Below, piece after piece: positions 7-15,319 of a stretch of DNA of 20,601 nt. The notes beneath the pieces are model-generated. The model was not told the origin of the DNA, ran no database searches, and saw nothing but the letters and a program-made list of their open reading frames with translations. Each line of letters begins with the position of its first letter. Position 1 is the first letter of the stretch. The DNA is from a virus: IMG/VR virus record IMGVR_UViG_3300010885_012106, positions 1-20,601 of that record. The stretch is one strand, 5' to 3'. The position numbers and the translations under genes were made by a program.

Positions 7-951
7 ATGACTACTGAACAAACTAATCGTTTGGCAGTCTTACAAACACAATTAAGTAATGATTTAACTAAAGCAAAAGCAAAAGATCGTTTAAGTATAT
101 ACAACGATACAGCCAAAGCGTTTGTTGCTGAAGGTTTACCACCACCAACAATGCAACAAATGGGATTAAATAGCGATGGTACATTAACTAGTGAACGAGC
201 AGCTCCTCCTCAAGCTGCAGCTACACAAACAGCTGCTCCTGCTGCAGCCGCTACTCCTACTGGTAATGTAGCAGCTCCAGTTGCTCCAGAAGGTGGTGGT
301 GTTGCTGCTCCTGTATCTCCTGAAGCTGCAGCTCGTCCTCCAACGCTAAATGAAATCAATAAGCGTAAAGAAGAAGAGAAATCAGTAAGAGAAACTCAAC
401 AAGCCGCAGCTAAGAAGATTGCTACAGAAGCTGCTGAAGCTGTTGCAGCATCTCCACAGACAATAGTTAATATGAATAAGATTGACAAAGCTGTTAAACA
501 CTTAGATAAAGGTACTACAAACTTTGGTGCTGCTGGTGGTGGATTACGCAAAGGTGAATTAAGTGGAAGTGCAGCTCAGAAAGTTGGACGATTCTTTGAT
601 ACTGAAGATGCTCGTAATACACAAGATGTAATGGAAGCTATTAATGGTGTTGTACTAGAAAGAGCAAATCTAGGTAAGATGACAGATAAAGATTTGGAAT
701 TCTATACAGCAGGTAAACCTACAATTGATGATAGTCCAGAGCGTGTAAGAGAATGGTTAGATACTGCAAAGACTGACTTAAACAATAAACTAAAATTCAA
801 TAAAGAACAAGCTGCTAGTGGTGGTCGTAAAGGACCGATGGAACAGACTCCTGCTCCTGTCGCTCCTCCTCCATCTATTCCAGGTGGCACTAGTAAGATT
901 ATTGGTGGTGTGACTTATGTCTATGATGGTAAAGGATGGAAAAAGAAATGA
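7..951 (+). CDS. Ala/Pro-rich putative virion protein (N-terminus may extend upstream)
   Basis: I do not recognise a family. The 314-residue product has a helical N-terminal part (about 1-50), a low-complexity Ala/Pro/Thr linker (about 65-115), a charged helical stretch (about 115-145), and a more ordered domain (about 150-270). The last ~20 residues contain GGVTYVYDGKGWKKK, a G/Y/W-rich tail of a kind often seen at the ends of phage virion proteins. The reading frame is open to the window edge, so the ATG at 7, which has only GAGAAC before it, may not be the true start. The stop overlaps the next start as ATGA (948-951), so the two genes are probably translationally coupled. Position and composition suggest a minor structural or ejected protein; that is inference. 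Confidence 0.6.
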   Translation: MTTEQTNRLAVLQTQLSNDLTKAKAKDRLSIYNDTAKAFVAEGLPPPTMQQMGLNSDGTLTSERAAPPQAAATQTAAPAAAATPTGNVAAPVAPEGGGVAAPVSPEAAARPPTLNEINKRKEEEKSVRETQQAAAKKIATEAAEAVAASPQTIVNMNKIDKAVKHLDKGTTNFGAAGGGLRKGELSGSAAQKVGRFFDTEDARNTQDVMEAINGVVLERANLGKMTDKDLEFYTAGKPTIDDSPERVREWLDTAKTDLNNKLKFNKEQAASGGRKGPMEQTPAPVAPPPSIPGGTSKIIGGVTYVYDGKGWKKK

Positions 952-2052: not shown

Positions 2053-2484
2053 ATGACAACAGTAGAAGCATTACAACAAATTTTTAGAGACAACTTCGTA
2101 GCATACTTTCGTAGTCATGCTGCACATGTAAACATCGTAGGTCGCAACTTTGCAAGCGATCATAAGCTACTACAAAAGACTTATGAAGACTTACAGAGTC
2201 AGATTGATACATTAGGTGAATTACTACGCACACTAGAAGAATTTATGCCTAACGACATTGGTGCAATCATTGATGAAAGCAATCTGGATACAGATGCTAT
2301 TGAAGGTACAGCAGACGAATTAATACAAGCAGGTATGGAAGACCTAGAGTATCTAGCAACAGAACACCGTGAATTAATTGGTATTGCTACAGAAGAAGGA
2401 CAAGATCAGATTGCAAATTATGCACAAGATCGTGTTCTAGCTCTAGAGAAACATATTTGGATGTATAGGTCAACATTAGAATAG
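2053..2484 (+). CDS. Dps-like ferritin-fold protein
   Basis: The 143-residue product fits the Dps (DNA-binding protein from starved cells) branch of the ferritin superfamily. The helix A/B signature HVNIVGRNFASDH occupies 25-37 with the same spacing as HWN(x9)H in E. coli Dps. Aligning to the E. coli ferroxidase ligands H51, H63, D67, D78 and E82 gives H25, H37, Q41, D52 and E56, so four of five ligands are kept and one Asp is Gln. The C-terminal helix ends in LEKHIWMYRSTLE, close to the (E/H)KxxWMLRxxL ending of Dps proteins. It lacks the Lys-rich N-terminal DNA-binding tail and is a little shorter than most Dps. Dps proteins form 12-mers that oxidise and store iron and shield DNA. It starts 1 base after the upstream stop, so it probably shares an operon with the virion genes. 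Whether it enters the virion or acts in the host cell is unknown. Confidence 0.85.
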   Translation: MTTVEALQQIFRDNFVAYFRSHAAHVNIVGRNFASDHKLLQKTYEDLQSQIDTLGELLRTLEEFMPNDIGAIIDESNLDTDAIEGTADELIQAGMEDLEYLATEHRELIGIATEEGQDQIANYAQDRVLALEKHIWMYRSTLE

Positions 2485-2985
2485 TTTAGTAGGTTTATAT
2501 AATAAGTTTGTTCGCTTATAAGCAACACTTCCTCTTATAATATAACCTGCTCTACTATGTAGTTTAAGGAATACTGCTTGTTCTTGTCGCAGTGTGTTGC
2601 TATGGATGATAGGTATATCATGAAGTTGTGCGAATCTTTCCCATAACTCAATCATCTCATCTAGCAGTAATATACGACGACGAACACTTAGGTTAGGGTC
2701 TACATGAGCCATTCGCACTGTAGCAACTTCTTCGTTGCTCCACATGCTGTGTTCTCCGGTCTTAACCCAAGTGTATGCTAACAAACGATTGTTTTCATCT
2801 CTTGCAGTTGCAATTAGGTCGCTTCTACCAGAGTAGAATTGATTTACGAGCGCAGAGACAATGTGGTGTGATAACACATTAGGGTTGAAGTTAAAGATAG
2901 TATCTACTTCATATTGAACCATCAGGTTCAGATTCATTATATCCTGGCTGTCAGCAGGAGTAGCGAGTTTCCAAGTGTATTGCAT
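2476..2985 (-). CDS. GNAT-type N-acetyltransferase-like protein
   Basis: The 169-residue product has a GNAT-like layout: an N-terminal strand-helix beginning YTWKLATPADSQDI, a central beta region (about 56-97) leading into VDP, then SVRRRILLLDEMIELWERFA (100-119), where the acetyl-CoA pyrophosphate loop and helix should be. This is followed by IPIIHSN, LRQEQAVFLKLHSRAGYIIRG and a final strand. The LH-R-x-G-Y ending is typical of GNATs. The classical glycines of the acetyl-CoA loop (R/QxxGxG/A) are missing, so activity is uncertain. The start has AGGAAA just upstream on the minus strand. This is the only minus-strand gene here; its 3' end overlaps the Dps-like gene by 9 bases tail to tail. GNAT proteins of unknown target are common in phages. 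Confidence 0.75.
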   Translation of the reverse strand: MQYTWKLATPADSQDIMNLNLMVQYEVDTIFNFNPNVLSHHIVSALVNQFYSGRSDLIATARDENNRLLAYTWVKTGEHSMWSNEEVATVRMAHVDPNLSVRRRILLLDEMIELWERFAQLHDIPIIHSNTLRQEQAVFLKLHSRAGYIIRGSVAYKRTNLLYKPTKLF

Positions 2986-4073: not shown

Positions 4074-4904
4074 ATGACAGTCATCAGAACGGATATTATT
4101 CCAAATTTATACGCAAATCCAATTGCAAGTATTACAAAAGCAGATCCAGCAGTGGTCACAGTTCCAGTCACAGCAACTATTGTTAGTGCAACTGGTACAA
4201 TAGGTACAGTCACCGGTAGTGGTACAGCAAATGCACCATGGACAGCAGAAATCACAAACATGGCTTCAGTAGCTGGTTTAGTTTCAGGTAGTAATATTAC
4301 TTCTACAGCTGGTAGTGGTACTTTCGCAGCAGGTGGTGTAGTAAGAGTTGCTAGAGTTTCTGGTAATAAGAGTATTACAATTTACAAAGTTGGTGGAACA
4401 ATCCCAACAGCTGGTACTGTGACTAACATCTCATTACCTGCAGTCACTACAATGCCAATTACACTAGCTGACGAAGGTGTTATCTTATTCACTAATCCTG
4501 GCAATAAGTTTACATTCACAAGCAGCACTGCAGAATTCCAAGCTGGTGAAACATTCACACAAGCAACAAGTGCTGCAACTGGTCTTATTACAAATGTACT
4601 ACCAACAGCAATTGAATACACAGTAATTAGTGGTGTAGTAAGTACAAGTTATGTTGTCACTGGTAATACAACTGGTGCTACAACAACTCCAACAGCAGTC
4701 ACTGGTATGAACCAATTATTAACAGCTGGTGTTAATGGTACTAATGCATATTATGTTGATGTGTTAACAGCTAATACATTTGCTCTATATACAGACGAAG
4801 CATTAACTGAAACCGTTGATAGTTCTGCATTTACAACAGCAACTGCAAACGCAGGTCAATATACAACATTTGACGAAGTAGCAATTACTGAACCAACACC
4901 ATAA
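4074..4904 (+). CDS. Beta-domain protein sharing a domain with the head-tail adaptor
   Basis: The 276-residue product is Thr/Val/Ala/Gly-rich and all-beta. Residues about 36-123 form a domain with landmarks VSATGTIGTVTG, a PWT, IT, AG and a closing GGTIPTAGTVTNISL. The same order of landmarks (VSAVGTVSTVTG, PWT, IT, AG, GGTIPTVGNITDITL) occurs at residues about 241-322 of the adaptor at 14108-15319, so the two are homologous by eye. The C-terminal half (about 125-276) holds a second beta region ending NAYYVDVLTANTFALYTD, a pattern common in phage appendage proteins. There is no signal peptide or enzyme motif. It starts 2 bases after the upstream stop with GGAG upstream. It is probably a virion surface protein, perhaps a head decoration or fibre; the exact site is unknown. 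Confidence 0.65.
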   Translation: MTVIRTDIIPNLYANPIASITKADPAVVTVPVTATIVSATGTIGTVTGSGTANAPWTAEITNMASVAGLVSGSNITSTAGSGTFAAGGVVRVARVSGNKSITIYKVGGTIPTAGTVTNISLPAVTTMPITLADEGVILFTNPGNKFTFTSSTAEFQAGETFTQATSAATGLITNVLPTAIEYTVISGVVSTSYVVTGNTTGATTTPTAVTGMNQLLTAGVNGTNAYYVDVLTANTFALYTDEALTETVDSSAFTTATANAGQYTTFDEVAITEPTP

Positions 4905-6517: not shown

Positions 6518-8134
6518 ATGATTGGAACAGAAACGCTTATGGCTCGTGCCTTGCGTTATGCTTTAGACTCAAACAATACTGAGATTGCGTCATATAAAAT
6601 GTGGCCAACCGACTTACAAAATCAACTACAAGATCTTGTAATTGAAGTGGCCGATGATATGAAGTATAATCAACTAAAGTACTTTAGGCCTTTTGCTCAC
6701 CAATTTGAATTCTTCAAGACTGGTGATAGCGAACGCCGTGGTATTCTTGCTGCTAACCGTATTGGTAAGACTGTTAGTACATGTTATGAAACTGCCTACC
6801 ACTTGACAGGATTGTATCCTGATTGGTGGGAAGGTTATCGCTTTAATAAACCTATTACTTGTATGGTTGCAGGTGAAGGATGGGCTCAAGTTGCATTGGT
6901 ATTACAAAATGAATTAATAGGAACACAAGATGTTAAGATTACAGAAAACTTGGGCACAGGTGCTATCCCTCGTGATTGTATTATTACTAATACTATGCGG
7001 AATGATGGAGCTAACTGTATTGGTCTTGAAATCAAGCATATATCGGGTTCAAACAGCTATCTTCTCTTTGCAAATTATACGCAAGAGGTACGCCAACTAC
7101 AAGGTTTCAAACTAAACCTAGCAGTATTTGATGAGCAACCACCAGATGATTTCTTTTCTGAGATTGTCACTCGTACTGCTACTACACAGGGTAAGGTACT
7201 ATGTTCATTTACACCACTTAAAGGTCTTAATGGATTAGTATCTAAATTCTGGAATAAAGAAGAAGGTTATGAATTTATTCGCGTAGCTTGGGATGATGTA
7301 CCTGAGTACGATCCATGGGGTGAACCATTCCTGTTAAAAGAAACTCGCCGTCAATTAGAGCGTGATTATTTGCCACATGAACGAGAAGCTCGTATTGCTG
7401 GTAAACCAGTTATGGGTAAGGGTGCTGTATTCCAACTTCGTCATTGGCCTACATATACTACTGGTCAAATTGACTTTGGCCGCATACCAAATATACAGCG
7501 AGTTATTGCGCTTGACTTGGGTCTAGTGAATGACCAGACAGTTATTACATTAATGTATTGGGAGCCGTATGAAAGAACAGCATATTTACATAAACAAATA
7601 TGTGTGAAAGGGATTGAAGAAGCGGTACCTAGTCAGTATATTAATCATCTATTAAGACCAGAAGTATTTGGTACACCTATTGTCTTACCTGCAGATGCTA
7701 ATACACAAGGTCGTTATACTATGAGTGCAAGCAGCATTAGAGAACTATTTGAATCGTATGAGCTTAATGTATATCATAAAGCAATCATGAATCCGCCTGA
7801 TGCAGAAGGACGAGTGACCAATCACAAGAGTTATGGTATTAATCAAATGCGTCAGATGTTAGAAGTTGGTAGTTTAATGGTTAATGAGAACTGTACCCAA
7901 TTCCTAAGCGATGCTCAAAACTACTATGTAGATGAGAAAGGTCGTTTCTCTGATCCAGATGATACAATTGATAGTGCTCGTTATGCCCTTCTAGCTTGCT
8001 TACAAGGTGTTGCAGAACCATGGGATAACCGTACTCCACAGCAACGTATGGCTGCGCAAAGAGATAAATATTATAAGCCAAGAGATGAGTCTAACTTACC
8101 AGCTTGGAAGAAAGCATATAACCCACAAGGATAA
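6518..8134 (+). CDS. terL: Terminase large subunit
   Basis: The 538-residue product is the ATPase-nuclease motor that packages DNA into the prohead through the portal. N-terminal ATPase: Walker A AANRIGKT at 78-85, Walker B LAVFDEQ at 201-207 with catalytic E206, and coupling motif SFTP at 230-233. C-terminal RNase H-like nuclease: first Asp in ALDLG (D333), second in PADANTQ (D393), and an acidic cluster SDPDDTID (478-485) before ARYAL. This order matches the Terminase_6 type, and the length is normal. AGAGG upstream of ATG 6518 is the ribosome site. The nuclease cuts concatemers at the start and end of packaging. The motifs are complete, so it should be active. Confidence 0.95.
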   Translation: MIGTETLMARALRYALDSNNTEIASYKMWPTDLQNQLQDLVIEVADDMKYNQLKYFRPFAHQFEFFKTGDSERRGILAANRIGKTVSTCYETAYHLTGLYPDWWEGYRFNKPITCMVAGEGWAQVALVLQNELIGTQDVKITENLGTGAIPRDCIITNTMRNDGANCIGLEIKHISGSNSYLLFANYTQEVRQLQGFKLNLAVFDEQPPDDFFSEIVTRTATTQGKVLCSFTPLKGLNGLVSKFWNKEEGYEFIRVAWDDVPEYDPWGEPFLLKETRRQLERDYLPHEREARIAGKPVMGKGAVFQLRHWPTYTTGQIDFGRIPNIQRVIALDLGLVNDQTVITLMYWEPYERTAYLHKQICVKGIEEAVPSQYINHLLRPEVFGTPIVLPADANTQGRYTMSASSIRELFESYELNVYHKAIMNPPDAEGRVTNHKSYGINQMRQMLEVGSLMVNENCTQFLSDAQNYYVDEKGRFSDPDDTIDSARYALLACLQGVAEPWDNRTPQQRMAAQRDKYYKPRDESNLPAWKKAYNPQG

Positions 8135-8420: not shown

Positions 8421-10712
8421 ATGCTTGATATTAAAAATATCCCAGTGCAGGACATTAATCAGAATAAGAAGATTAATGCCAACTTTGTGCGAATGAAAAA
8501 TCTGATGGATGTTAAAATGGCATCCTACTTGCGTTATCTAGGTACAAAGAATGCAGTTAATCGCGCAAGTGACTATCACTATTTGTGTTTAGCTGTCACG
8601 GACAGCACCGCACCAGTTAATGGTATTGATTACATACATCCAACAGTTAAACCTGTTGTAGATTATGCTACAGCAGTTATTGCTAAAGGTTTAATGCCTA
8701 ATGGCGAAATTAACTTTGAGTTTGTACCAGACGGAGAATGGGATGAAGTAGCCGCAAGACAAGCTACTGAAATGGTCAGCAAGGTTGTCAACCAAATGAA
8801 TGACCCACACTTTATTTTAGAACGCTGGGTTATGGATTCTGCCATGCATAAGAATGGTATGATGATGATTAAACCTGTACGAGAATTTGTCACACGCTAT
8901 GTAGAGAGTGAAGGTACCAATGACCAACTAAAAGCATTTGAATTACAAGCTGCAGAATCTGGCTTGACAACTCTACGCCAAAGCAAGCGTCAAGTAAATG
9001 TTATGATGGACAAGGCAATGGCTGAAATCAAACAACTATTAGGTGGACAACAATCAGAATTAGCAAATGAATTAGTAGATAAGCATGTTGCATCTATGCG
9101 CAATATGGATGAAGATGGCAACTATGCTGAATTAGCTACTGGTCAAATGGAAGTGTTTGACAAGCAAGTCACAGGTCAAGAAGATATTATCAACGAAGCA
9201 ATTACTCGTAATACAATATATAAAGCAAAGTACAAAGTGACAGGTTATGCAATGAATATTAAGTTTCATCCTATTGCACAACACTATTGGATTTGCGATC
9301 CTACTGTTCCTGAAATGAAGGATCAACCATTCTGTGGTTTTTATGATCCTATGACGATTCAAGAAGCCTATGATTTATATCCAAGTATACATGGTGACTT
9401 AGATAACTTCCGTGAATTTGCAGAATACAATATGAATGGTGCCTATCAAGCAGGTAGTGTATTAAACAACTTGGCTATTCATGCTCGCGATTCTGTTCCT
9501 GTTATGGGTATTCCTGTTAATAGTGCTTCATCAGCAGATCCAGATTCTCGTCAAGTATCTATTGTCACCGTATGGAATAGATATGACATTGATGGTGATG
9601 GTGAATTAGAATTAGTAGAATTAATCTATAGTGGTAGTTATATCATTAGTGCAAGAGAAGTAGAGTTTATTCCTGTTGCTAGTATGTGTCCAAAACCACT
9701 ACCTGGAAACTTCTACGGAATGAGTATTGCAGAAAGTGTTATTCCTATGCAGGAATATGCTACATCAGCTGCTCGTGCTGAAATTCAATTAGGTCTACTA
9801 ACAGCTACTCCTCGTATTGGTGTTAATCCTGACCACTTAGACTTTGAAATGTTGCAAGATGGTGAAGCTGCTATCTTTATATTAACTAGTAAGTTTGATC
9901 CAGCCAAAGACATTTATCAAATTCCTCCTCCATCTGGTAATTTAAACTTCTTGGAAACAGGTATGAATCGTATTCAACAAGATACGATGGCCATGGTTGG
10001 TATGACTACACCTCAAGATGTATTCAATCCAGAAGTCATGGCACCTGGTAATAGTGGTGTTAAATTGCAAATGGCACTAAGTCCTAATCAAATCATACAG
10101 GATAATACAGTAAGAAATGCGGCAGAAGGTCTTAAAGAAGCGTTATACTTAGTATGGCGTACTCTAATACAATATGGTGATGATTTTGGTGTTAAGAAAT
10201 TAGCAGCACAATGCCGTCCTGATAAGAAACCTGAGTTTATGGATTATGTTGCATGGGATGAAATGTCATCTATGACAGATCGTAAACAACTAACTCTAGA
10301 ACTTGCGTTAGGTATGAATAGTGAAGAAAACAGTTTGAATAGATTACAACTAATCCAAAAATGTCAGACTGGTTTAATTGCTGCAACACAAGGTATGGTT
10401 CAACAAGGCATTATGACTCCTGAAATGTATAAGAAAGTTAAGAAGCCTTATGCTGATACTTTATATACATTAGGTGTTAAAGATTGTGATGCATACTTAC
10501 CAAGTGATGAAGAAATTGCACAAATGATTAAACAATCACAAGAAGCTCAGAAGAATAAACAACCTCCTGCACAAGACAAGAAGTATCTTGCAGATGCAGA
10601 ATTGGCACAAGCAAGAGCACAACAGATCGCAGCAGAAGTTGCAGGTGAAGATGCTGAAAGTCAGATGGACTTTATGGCATTGGCAATGGGTGACCCTAAA
10701 GTTTACTCTTAA
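8421..10712 (+). CDS. Portal protein (large, SU10/N4/P22-type)
   Basis: The 763-residue product has the length of the large podovirus portals (N4 and P22 are both above 700) rather than the ~530 of T7. Recognisable features: an N-terminal helical region with DYHYLCLAVTDSTAPVNGIDYIHPTVKP, a wing with long helices (about 160-240), and a conserved-looking DIDGDGELELVE loop at 389-400, which fits a 12-residue EF-hand calcium loop and recalls the DxDGDGxxEL seen in other podovirus portals. A crown/stem region follows with IPMQEYATSAARAEIQLGLL and NSGVKLQMALSPNQIIQDN. The C-terminal ~70 residues are a Gln/Ala/Lys-rich helical tail. The portal forms a dodecameric ring at one capsid vertex through which DNA passes. 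AAAGGA upstream of ATG 8421 is the ribosome site. It sits in the usual place after terL. Confidence 0.88.
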   Translation: MLDIKNIPVQDINQNKKINANFVRMKNLMDVKMASYLRYLGTKNAVNRASDYHYLCLAVTDSTAPVNGIDYIHPTVKPVVDYATAVIAKGLMPNGEINFEFVPDGEWDEVAARQATEMVSKVVNQMNDPHFILERWVMDSAMHKNGMMMIKPVREFVTRYVESEGTNDQLKAFELQAAESGLTTLRQSKRQVNVMMDKAMAEIKQLLGGQQSELANELVDKHVASMRNMDEDGNYAELATGQMEVFDKQVTGQEDIINEAITRNTIYKAKYKVTGYAMNIKFHPIAQHYWICDPTVPEMKDQPFCGFYDPMTIQEAYDLYPSIHGDLDNFREFAEYNMNGAYQAGSVLNNLAIHARDSVPVMGIPVNSASSADPDSRQVSIVTVWNRYDIDGDGELELVELIYSGSYIISAREVEFIPVASMCPKPLPGNFYGMSIAESVIPMQEYATSAARAEIQLGLLTATPRIGVNPDHLDFEMLQDGEAAIFILTSKFDPAKDIYQIPPPSGNLNFLETGMNRIQQDTMAMVGMTTPQDVFNPEVMAPGNSGVKLQMALSPNQIIQDNTVRNAAEGLKEALYLVWRTLIQYGDDFGVKKLAAQCRPDKKPEFMDYVAWDEMSSMTDRKQLTLELALGMNSEENSLNRLQLIQKCQTGLIAATQGMVQQGIMTPEMYKKVKKPYADTLYTLGVKDCDAYLPSDEEIAQMIKQSQEAQKNKQPPAQDKKYLADAELAQARAQQIAAEVAGEDAESQMDFMALAMGDPKVYS

Positions 10713-12263: not shown

Positions 12264-13436
12264 ATGGCAGAAATCACAACTTCGCAGATCGGTAATGGAA
12301 CAACAGCATACGGATCTGACATCGTAGTTAAAGACTTGGATCTAGATGTATCCAACAGAGTTAAGGACGACACACCAGTTTTAAACATGTGTATGTCAAA
12401 GAAGCGTAAAGTTAACAGCACACTACCATTGTGGACTGATGACATTTATCGCGCTCCTACAGTACAAGCTCAAGTTGAAGGCGCAGCTGTTAATACTTCT
12501 CAAGCAGAAAACAATCAGCGTTATAACTTAGGTAATTACACACAGATTTTCAGTACAGTTATTGCTGCTTCTGGAACTGCTCGCGCTGTAATGCAATCTG
12601 GTGGTGATCCACAAGCATATCAAGAAGTTAAGCAATTAATTGAATTAATGTTTGACGTTGAAATGCAATTGGTTCGTAATGACCAAATCGGTACTAAGTA
12701 TGCTGGTCAAGCCGGTACTGCAACAAGTGCTTATCCTGGTCAGACAGGCCGTCGTATGGGTTCATTAGCAGCTTTTGCTGGTACTCAATCTTACAACCCA
12801 ACAAGTGGTACATTGGCAAACATTACTACTAACACAAACAACGAGTCTACTGACTCTTCTACAGCAAGTGTTGGTGCATTTAATATTGCCGCTCAAGGTA
12901 GTCAGTTCTATACTGGTACATTCACACTACAGAAATTTAGTCCTGCGTTATATAAGCAATTGGTCACAGTTGCTGAACAACGCTACAACGCTAAGATTCG
13001 CACTGTAGTTGCTCCTACTTCTTTACGCACAAGTCTATCAGACAACATGCCACAAAGCAGAGGTATCAACCGTGTTGATTCAGCTCGTGGTGATACAATC
13101 CAGACTTATGAAGGTGACTTCAACTACACTTACGAAATCTTTGATTCTTGGATCATGGACCAAGTAAATGCAAATGCAATCTACTTCTTAAACGAAGACG
13201 TTGTTCAATGGGGTTCTCTACGAGATCTTGGTCCCAATAACGAGGTGTTTAGCAACGCCGATGCAAGCTTGGACCAATTTATTATGGAGGGCTGCTTGAT
13301 CGTCCGTAATCCAGCCGGTGTTGGTATTCTAAACAACATTGAAGCAGGAACAGATGCACAAGCTGCTTTACCAGGTGCTCGTCCAGCAGCATACGTTCAG
13401 CGTGTAAACCAAGGTGCAGGCGATGTCACACCTTAA
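12264..13436 (+). CDS. Major capsid protein (DUF5309/SU10-like)
   Basis: The 390-residue product resembles the DUF5309 (SU10-type) major head proteins, which are predicted to have the HK97 fold. Recognisable parts: N-arm with DVSNRVKDDTPVLNMCMSKKRKVNS (about 29-53), LPLWTDDIYRAP, the helical spine around QAYQEVKQLIELMFDVEMQLVRNDQIG (about 118-144), a T/S/N-rich loop (about 175-205), and FNYTYEIFDSWIMDQVNANAIYFLNEDVVQWGSLRDLGP (about 290-328). A strong AAGGAA site precedes the ATG. It follows the scaffold and is followed by a strong terminator, as expected for a very highly expressed gene. It would form the icosahedral shell. The family name is from memory; the role as coat protein is well supported by context. 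Confidence 0.87.
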   Translation: MAEITTSQIGNGTTAYGSDIVVKDLDLDVSNRVKDDTPVLNMCMSKKRKVNSTLPLWTDDIYRAPTVQAQVEGAAVNTSQAENNQRYNLGNYTQIFSTVIAASGTARAVMQSGGDPQAYQEVKQLIELMFDVEMQLVRNDQIGTKYAGQAGTATSAYPGQTGRRMGSLAAFAGTQSYNPTSGTLANITTNTNNESTDSSTASVGAFNIAAQGSQFYTGTFTLQKFSPALYKQLVTVAEQRYNAKIRTVVAPTSLRTSLSDNMPQSRGINRVDSARGDTIQTYEGDFNYTYEIFDSWIMDQVNANAIYFLNEDVVQWGSLRDLGPNNEVFSNADASLDQFIMEGCLIVRNPAGVGILNNIEAGTDAQAALPGARPAAYVQRVNQGAGDVTP

Positions 13437-14107: not shown

Positions 14108-15319
14108 ATGTTTGTAATTCCAACAGCAGATTCGCTTGTAGACTACATTAAAGATTTTACTGGTAGTACTAATACAGCAGAAATCAAACAGTGTATATTC
14201 TTAGGTGAATTAAGCATGCGTAATATTGAGCTACCCGCTTTACGCAGCGATCCATACGACCCGCAATATATTGGTGTGGTTGATGAAGAAGGTGGCATTC
14301 CTATTCCAGGTGATATGAATAAACCTATTCTGTTTTTTAAACAGGGTACACAATATATTACAAGTGCATTAGCAACTGGTACAAATGGACAATTAACAAT
14401 TGTAATTAATGCAGCTACAACACGACCACTGAGTGCTGGTATGTTAGTAAGCGGTACTGGTATTGCAACAGGTGCAACAATCGTAAGTGTTGGTGGAGCT
14501 GGTGGATTAACAATTACATTAAGCTTGGCAAATACTGGTACTGTAAGTGGTACCGTAGTATTTCAAACTCCTCCAGGTAATGGAGCAAGTAGTCAAACAG
14601 GTCCTTGGATTGTGTATGATCGTATTGGTGATAGAGATATTATTACACAAGGTATGATTGCTCAGTTGTATCTACAACCAGTAAATGTGCCAGCAGTTAT
14701 TCGTGGTAAGTTTTCTGAAGTAGCACAGAAGTATAAATTCTTACCTTACGCTGCATCAGGTGATTTGGTTAATATGTATTACTATAAAGCATGGCCGTTG
14801 TTGTTTGCTCCTGTAGCAGATATCTTAGTTAGTGCAGTTGGTACAGTTTCAACAGTGACTGGAGCAACTAGTCCTTGGACAGTAGTTATTACAGGACTTA
14901 CAGATACTGCAGGTGTAAATGTTGGTGACCGATTAACAGCTACTGATGGAACTGGTACTATTAGTAATGGTGGTATTATTGATGTAGTGTCAGTTGATAG
15001 TTCAACACAACTAACAGTCACCGTCACAGGTGGTACTATTCCTACAGTAGGTAATATTACAGACATTACACTTACAGATTTAGTCACACAAACAAATCCT
15101 GTATTACAAACATGGCCTGAAGGATACATTTATTCTACACTGCGTGAATACTATATTAAGCGACACAACGAAGCTGATGCAGCAACTTTTGAAGCAAAAT
15201 TCAGAAGTGCATGCGATACAGTTGAAGATCAAAACAGTTTAGGTAAGTGGAGTGGAGGTCATACAAGATTGACTTCAGTATGGCAACCTCGTCAGTATCG
15301 CCAATACAATATCAAATAA
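14108..15319 (+). CDS. Head-to-tail adaptor/connector-like protein with two inserted beta domains
   Basis: The 403-residue product has a helical base made of three separated parts: 1-80 (IPTADSLVDYIKDFTGS, IKQCIFLGELSMRNIELPAL), about 160-237 (QGMIAQLYLQPVNVPAVIRGKF, NMYYYKAWPLLFAP) and about 330-403 (LREYYIKRHNEADAATFEAKF). Joined, these give about 240 residues, in the range of gp4/gp11-type podovirus adaptors that bind the portal. Two Thr/Gly/Val-rich beta domains interrupt it: about 82-155 (with SAGMLVSGTGIATGATIVSV and TLSLANTGTVSGT) and about 241-325, which is homologous to residues 36-123 of the protein at 4074-4904. Both are probably surface loops projecting from the neck. The adaptor role is inferred from position and helix pattern. 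No Shine-Dalgarno better than AAAGGA at 14093-14098. Confidence 0.7.
   Translation: MFVIPTADSLVDYIKDFTGSTNTAEIKQCIFLGELSMRNIELPALRSDPYDPQYIGVVDEEGGIPIPGDMNKPILFFKQGTQYITSALATGTNGQLTIVINAATTRPLSAGMLVSGTGIATGATIVSVGGAGGLTITLSLANTGTVSGTVVFQTPPGNGASSQTGPWIVYDRIGDRDIITQGMIAQLYLQPVNVPAVIRGKFSEVAQKYKFLPYAASGDLVNMYYYKAWPLLFAPVADILVSAVGTVSTVTGATSPWTVVITGLTDTAGVNVGDRLTATDGTGTISNGGIIDVVSVDSSTQLTVTVTGGTIPTVGNITDITLTDLVTQTNPVLQTWPEGYIYSTLREYYIKRHNEADAATFEAKFRSACDTVEDQNSLGKWSGGHTRLTSVWQPRQYRQYNIK

Follow-up and report, generated by a model that had tools for sequence, protein, structure and literature searches.

The 20,601-nt window analysed here, carried by a 20.6-kb virus record (IMG/VR record IMGVR_UViG_3300010885_012106), encodes at positions 2053-2484 a genuine Dps-type mini-ferritin. 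Its gene, dps, is a core gene of the phage clade to which the window belongs (found in all members tested) and sits at the end of an ejection-protein cassette anchored by a virion-type lytic transglycosylase gene. The clade is a large one of uncultivated members and appears, by the impression gained from relatives, to consist of phages from aquatic samples. Given the place of dps at the end of the DNA-injection block and the four strictly kept residues of its iron site, the protein probably disarms iron late in infection, and a late-made ferroxidase and iron store that detoxifies iron and peroxide is the reading that we favour with moderate confidence.

Dps proteins encoded by phages have precedents in gut phages (Gratiaviridae and Flandersviridae), in which a role in ROS defence was proposed (PMC8008677), in freshwater metagenomic phages, in which ferritin was listed among ROS-defence genes (PMC6802176), in Lactobacillus phages (PMC6669764), and in Privateer and Kuravirus. 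Papers on YerA41 and 7-7-1 were dropped as precedents because their subject is not phage Dps. As far as our searches reach, the universality of dps within a clade, its fixed position behind an ejection cassette, the drift of the fifth iron ligand together with the loss of a Trp, and the link to DUF5856 are new. Phage Dps had so far been described as auxiliary and present in some phages only; for the gut and freshwater phages it was presented as an auxiliary enzyme, with no report of a core role within an ejection cassette. Here the gene is core in all clade members tested. With dps locked to the DNA-injection block, iron and oxidative chemistry would be a constant part of this clade's infection cycle, a point relevant to the debates on ROS defence by phages and on iron transported in their particles (Ferrojan Horse). 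The DUF5856 link predicts a minimal ferritin-like site in many more phages than are annotated with one.

Family and fold of the Dps protein

The dps product matched the Pfam Ferritin family (PF00210) over residues 5-143 with 58.6 bits against a cutoff of 24.5 (E 8.3e-16), and the phrog_3636 profile over residues 4-142 (7.2e-24). CAIP of Helicobacter cinaedi (2e-13) and HP-NAP of H. pylori (1e-12) were the top solved Dps chains in a phmmer search of the PDB, and a profile search again returned structures of the CAIP / HP-NAP type as the closest. Both have the same length as the window Dps and align to it without a gap before about residue 79, but they are cellular, carry Trp26 and share about 26-31% identity with it. 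The AlphaFold2 model, built with 22 homologues (pLDDT 96, pTM 0.90), shows a bundle of four long helices, with a short additional one between B and C (predicted helices at residues 3-27, 33-60, 69-74, 87-114 and 118-142), and its top Foldseek matches are all Dps-family structures (TM 0.91-0.95). A preliminary description of the locus had proposed a Dps-like ferritin fold and named any structure other than a four-helix bundle as evidence to the contrary; the predicted bundle, together with the Pfam, PHROG and PDB matches, bears the proposal out.

The protein scored below the cutoffs of the E. coli-type Dps equivalog (NCBIfam PRK09448; 25.9 bits versus 114) and of DUF5856 (PF19174; 15.5 bits versus 34.6), and none of the window-clade records scanned against DUF5856 rose above that family's cutoff. 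The protein has no counterpart of the Lys-rich N-terminal tail with which E. coli Dps binds DNA: only two residues precede helix A, which starts at residue 3. The pI is 4.38, within a clade range of 4.2-4.7, and there are no basic tails.

Table 1. Features of the window, with the codons of the iron-site positions of Dps.
Feature	Position	Strand	Basis or remark
g1, 3' part (window cuts gene)	7..951	+	family with SLT transglycosylase / internal virion protein domain
g2, variable last gene of ejection-type cassette, 371 aa	936..2051	+	ORF, contexts
dps (mini-ferritin, Dps)	2053..2484	+	143 aa, ATG start
His25 codon (= E. coli Dps H51)	2125..2127	+	alignment; invariant
Val26 codon (= E. coli W52, Trp in typical Dps)	2128..2130	+	alignment; never Trp in 76 relatives
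His37 codon (= E. coli H63)	2161..2163	+	alignment
Gln41 codon (= E. coli D67), variable fifth ligand position	2173..2175	+	alignment, relatives
Asp52 codon (= E. coli D78)	2206..2208	+	alignment
Glu56 codon (= E. coli E82)	2218..2220	+	alignment
GNAT-like acetyltransferase ORF (weak match), convergent	2476..2985	-	overlaps dps end by 9 nt
Large terminase (census anchor)	6518..8134	+	Pfam, used for unbiased census
SU10-type portal protein	8421..10712	+	Pfam
SU10-type major capsid protein	12264..13436	+	Pfam

Conservation of the iron site

Residues were assigned by alignment with an E. coli Dps sequence that was checked against PDB 1f30/1dps. The computed alignment gave exactly the map of the preliminary description, that is, H25, H37, D52 and E56 as ligands and Gln41 in place of D67, so that the Asp/Glu fifth ligand is absent; the earlier reading had overlooked V26 in place of W52, the Trp of the HWN motif. 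HP-NAP has the four ligands under the same numbers, and CAIP shares the Gln at position 41.

All 76 distinct full-length relatives keep H25, H37, D52 and E56, an invariance far beyond chance. Position 41 varies among them (44 have Q, 19 G, 7 E, 4 K, and one each N and A), and position 26 is occupied by V, A, I or L, the HWN-motif Trp having been lost. Because this set was gathered in part with patterns that contain H37, the ligand count was redone on the contigs found through the terminase alone: H25 and H37 were present in 36/36, and D52 and E56 in 37/37, of the relatives covering the respective positions, with Q, G, K or E at position 41. Residues 22-60, the ligand-bearing stretch, belong to the best-conserved part of the protein, with a mean entropy of 0.64 bits; the BC connection (loop) and helix C average 1.4-1.5 bits. 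The gene is under purifying selection, with a median dN/dS of about 0.09.

Gln at position 41 also occurs in cellular Dps, namely that of Pacificitalea and the CAIP of H. cinaedi, the latter with 12 iron sites reported in putative ferroxidase centres (PMC5225449). Gln41 is therefore no special adaptation, and the fifth ligand was not used to define Dps, since its position is variable in the clade and occupied by residues other than Asp or Glu in some cellular proteins. The pattern of conservation suggests that selection maintains the iron site, and neither the fifth ligand nor DNA binding.

This bears on the idea, raised in the preliminary description, that the Gln substitution favours a structural or DNA-related role. 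A catalytically dead Dps acting as a structural or DNA-compacting protein would be in keeping with the change from Asp to Gln and with the lost Trp; yet the four other ligands are invariant while position 41 drifts, Gln is found there in cellular Dps, and the protein is acidic and devoid of basic tails. We regard such a role as very unlikely. The structural interpretation of Gln41 was rejected because the residue is not fixed among phage homologues (Q/G/E/K/N/A), and the acidity of the protein speaks against the DNA-related one. The interpretation given in the preliminary description is thus partly supported as a whole.

A single-copy core gene in a fixed place

To take a census, IMG/VR was scanned by the terminase alone and contigs with at least 7 kb of upstream sequence were kept. 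Among the best 80 terminase matches, all of them at least 82% identical, dps was present in 31/31 such contigs, on the strand of the terminase and 3.0-6.3 kb before it; the units of this census are contigs, some near-identical, and the distinct terminase-linked Dps sequences number 28. Viewed in reverse, from 80 Dps loci, the terminase lay downstream in 68, the contig was too short in 10, and in the remaining 2 the terminase was located elsewhere on the contig, outside the stretch analysed. A single copy of dps was found in 12/12 longer records. Distances between Dps proteins correlate with those between terminases (Mantel r 0.41, with 0/2000 permutations as high), as expected of a gene largely inherited with the genome.

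These results weigh on the possibility that dps is a passenger, an auxiliary gene recently gained from a host that would help the infected cell against ROS in general. Precedents exist in freshwater (PMC6802176) and gut (PMC8008677) phages, and the nearest cellular relatives in a plasmid collection are for the most part Dps proteins of Alphaproteobacteria, with about 30% identity. The gene is nevertheless present in every clade member tested and fixed in its synteny, and no close cellular relative was found in GTDB genomes or the plasmid collection, all of which argues against a sporadic recent gain and makes a passenger gene highly improbable, although the protein could share that biochemical task all the same. 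A search for hosts, in which GTDB genomes were scanned with both Dps and terminase, returned nothing.

The ejection-type cassette upstream of dps

In 67 distinct contexts, dps always follows the ejection-type cassette, with g1 placed two ORFs (62 contexts) or three ORFs (5 contexts) before it and typically preceded by a gene of about 250 aa. The slot between g1 and dps holds a gene of about 200 to over 1000 aa across these contexts, g1 and dps being constant, and this suggests module exchange within the ejection set. A single nucleotide separates the g2 stop codon from the start of dps, and at every locus with an assignable upstream ORF the gap from its stop to dps was between -4 and +18 nt on the same strand, a tight coupling that agrees with the probable operon proposed earlier. 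A scan for promoters and terminators near dps yielded no more than chance, and since no such signal stands out, late co-transcription is deduced from gene order. The convergent GNAT-like ORF (2476-2985, minus strand) is syntenic in most relatives and missing in L012-L014.

The window contains the 3' part of g1, whose full product, in the near-identical contig L001, has 841 aa, and its domain-bearing N-terminal part falls outside the window. In the g1 family, 11 of 40 members carry an SLT transglycosylase domain (best 1.7e-16), the matching PHROGs are annotated as internal virion protein with endolysin domain, virion structural protein and released from the phage upon host infection, and Slt70 is matched weakly. 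The SLT assignment rests on these domain, PHROG and Slt70 profile matches and not on the fold model, which was poor (pLDDT 66); a fold search gave no match at E <= 0.001, a phage lysin ranking first. Comparison of the cassette genes with SU10 and Privateer ejection proteins by hhalign was weak, except for a 1577-aa protein against SU10 gp17 (81%). For comparison, the SU10 ejection protein gp20 has transglycosylase activity (PMC9509320). Both genes upstream of dps had been called virion-type; the SLT and internal virion protein matches support this label for g1, while g2 carried no such support.

The location raises a second reading, in which Dps is itself a member of the ejection set, packaged in the head, perhaps with iron, so that iron and/or peroxide protection would arrive together with the genome as infection begins, the Dps being either ejected into the next host or kept in the capsid. 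Besides the constant position behind the cassette and the nature of g1, a distant SU10-type relative argues for it: in published mass spectrometry (PMC7881722), the purified virions of the Proteus podophage Privateer were accompanied by its Dps-family protein (QIN94861), also a member of phrog_3636, and packaging is accordingly possible in the window's clade. QIN94861 shares 21% identity with the window Dps but retains Asp41 and Trp26, and its gene, unlike that of the window's clade, lies in a nucleotide-metabolism / DNA-metabolism cluster, so that co-purification of an abundant soluble protein is a possible explanation. In the BFVD collection, the Dps fold also occurs as one segment of larger phage proteins, some of them named prohead protease (A0A6J7XDU5, A0A6J7WPK9 and A0A6J7WIS1), which may connect Dps with the assembly of the head. 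On the other side, a 9-nm Dps cage would have to come apart before it could move through the tail channel of a podovirus. The ejection proteins listed in the SU10 virion study are gp20-24, its text making no mention of Dps (PMC9509320). Overall, we consider carriage in the virion a tentative, less probable alternative to late detoxification.

The placement itself is special to the window's clade among those examined, since SU10, Privateer and Cronobacter A24 have their Dps genes in clusters for DNA metabolism, and the sister clade described below has its relative elsewhere again. Escherichia phage SU10, whose portal and capsid are related to those of the window, encodes a DNA-binding protein (SU10_67) that shares phrog_3636 and the Dps fold with the window Dps, but has 187 aa with an N-terminal extension and is located in an early-type cluster.

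A probable shortened relative in the sister clade

The nearest named phage is MW202484, whose clade has terminases about 50% identical to that of the window. Ferritin-family matches were found in 0/19 members of this sister clade, yet the notion that it lacks any ferritin was overturned by a broader, mixed Dps profile, which detected a DUF5856 protein of 116-124 aa in 52/55 contigs with enough sequence. Its gene lies on the terminase strand, 4-8 kb before the terminase, and follows small early-type ORFs; homologues of g1 and of the gene preceding it are not beside it. All 25 aligned sister proteins matched Pfam DUF5856 and phrog_858, and 12 matched phrog_3636 as well. Residues H22, H31, D46 and E50 are invariant and align with H25, H37, D52 and E56 of the window Dps, whereas the MW202484-type protein (118 aa) is 2-3 residues shorter between the His ligands and has no Ferritin-family match. 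One example of a DUF5856 / phrog_858 protein with the H/H/D/E set is encoded at 38492-38845 of L029.

The direct profile comparison of sister protein and Dps by hhalign reached a probability of only 50% (E 1.6e-4). When the sister profile was run over 14,091 ORFs, however, it retrieved 62 window-clade Dps ORFs and otherwise only a sister protein, and the DUF5856 matches in four window-clade relatives (G001, G003, G004 and G011) fall inside the Dps gene. This specificity, the location of those matches and the alignable H/H/D/E set indicate that DUF5856 is probably a shortened, minimal Dps relative.

Proposed role in infection

By analogy with solved Dps, the acidic, tail-less protein would form a 12-mer with intersubunit sites, each composed of H25 and H37 from one chain and D52 and E56 from the dimer partner. 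Such a site would bind and oxidise Fe2+, probably with H2O2, and the iron would be stored inside. Judging from gene order, Dps is probably made late, together with virion proteins, and it may then remove Fe2+ and peroxide in the dying host while DNA is being packaged; protection of the new phage DNA and virions from Fenton damage would be its most likely task. Ferroxidase activity is preferred over DNA binding because the clade's proteins are acidic and lack DNA-binding tails. Ligand invariance, dN/dS, the census, the coupling, acidity and the H/H/D/E set of the sister clade all count in favour of late detoxification; the loss of the fifth ligand and of the Trp could lower activity and counts against it.

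Other features of the window and its relatives

The proteins encoded at 4074-4904 and 14108-15319 of the window share a module of ~110 aa (40% identity, E 7e-18), which is probably a mobile virion-surface or adhesion domain. In relative G001, a gene for a 2OG-Fe(II) oxygenase with DUF6817 (L181, 9768-10769) is located within the late cassette and represents another iron-dependent protein near dps. The same relative has small ORFs beside the terminase and portal genes (L182, 3962-4387 and 4662-5141) that, judged by eye, resemble insertions of the homing-endonuclease type.
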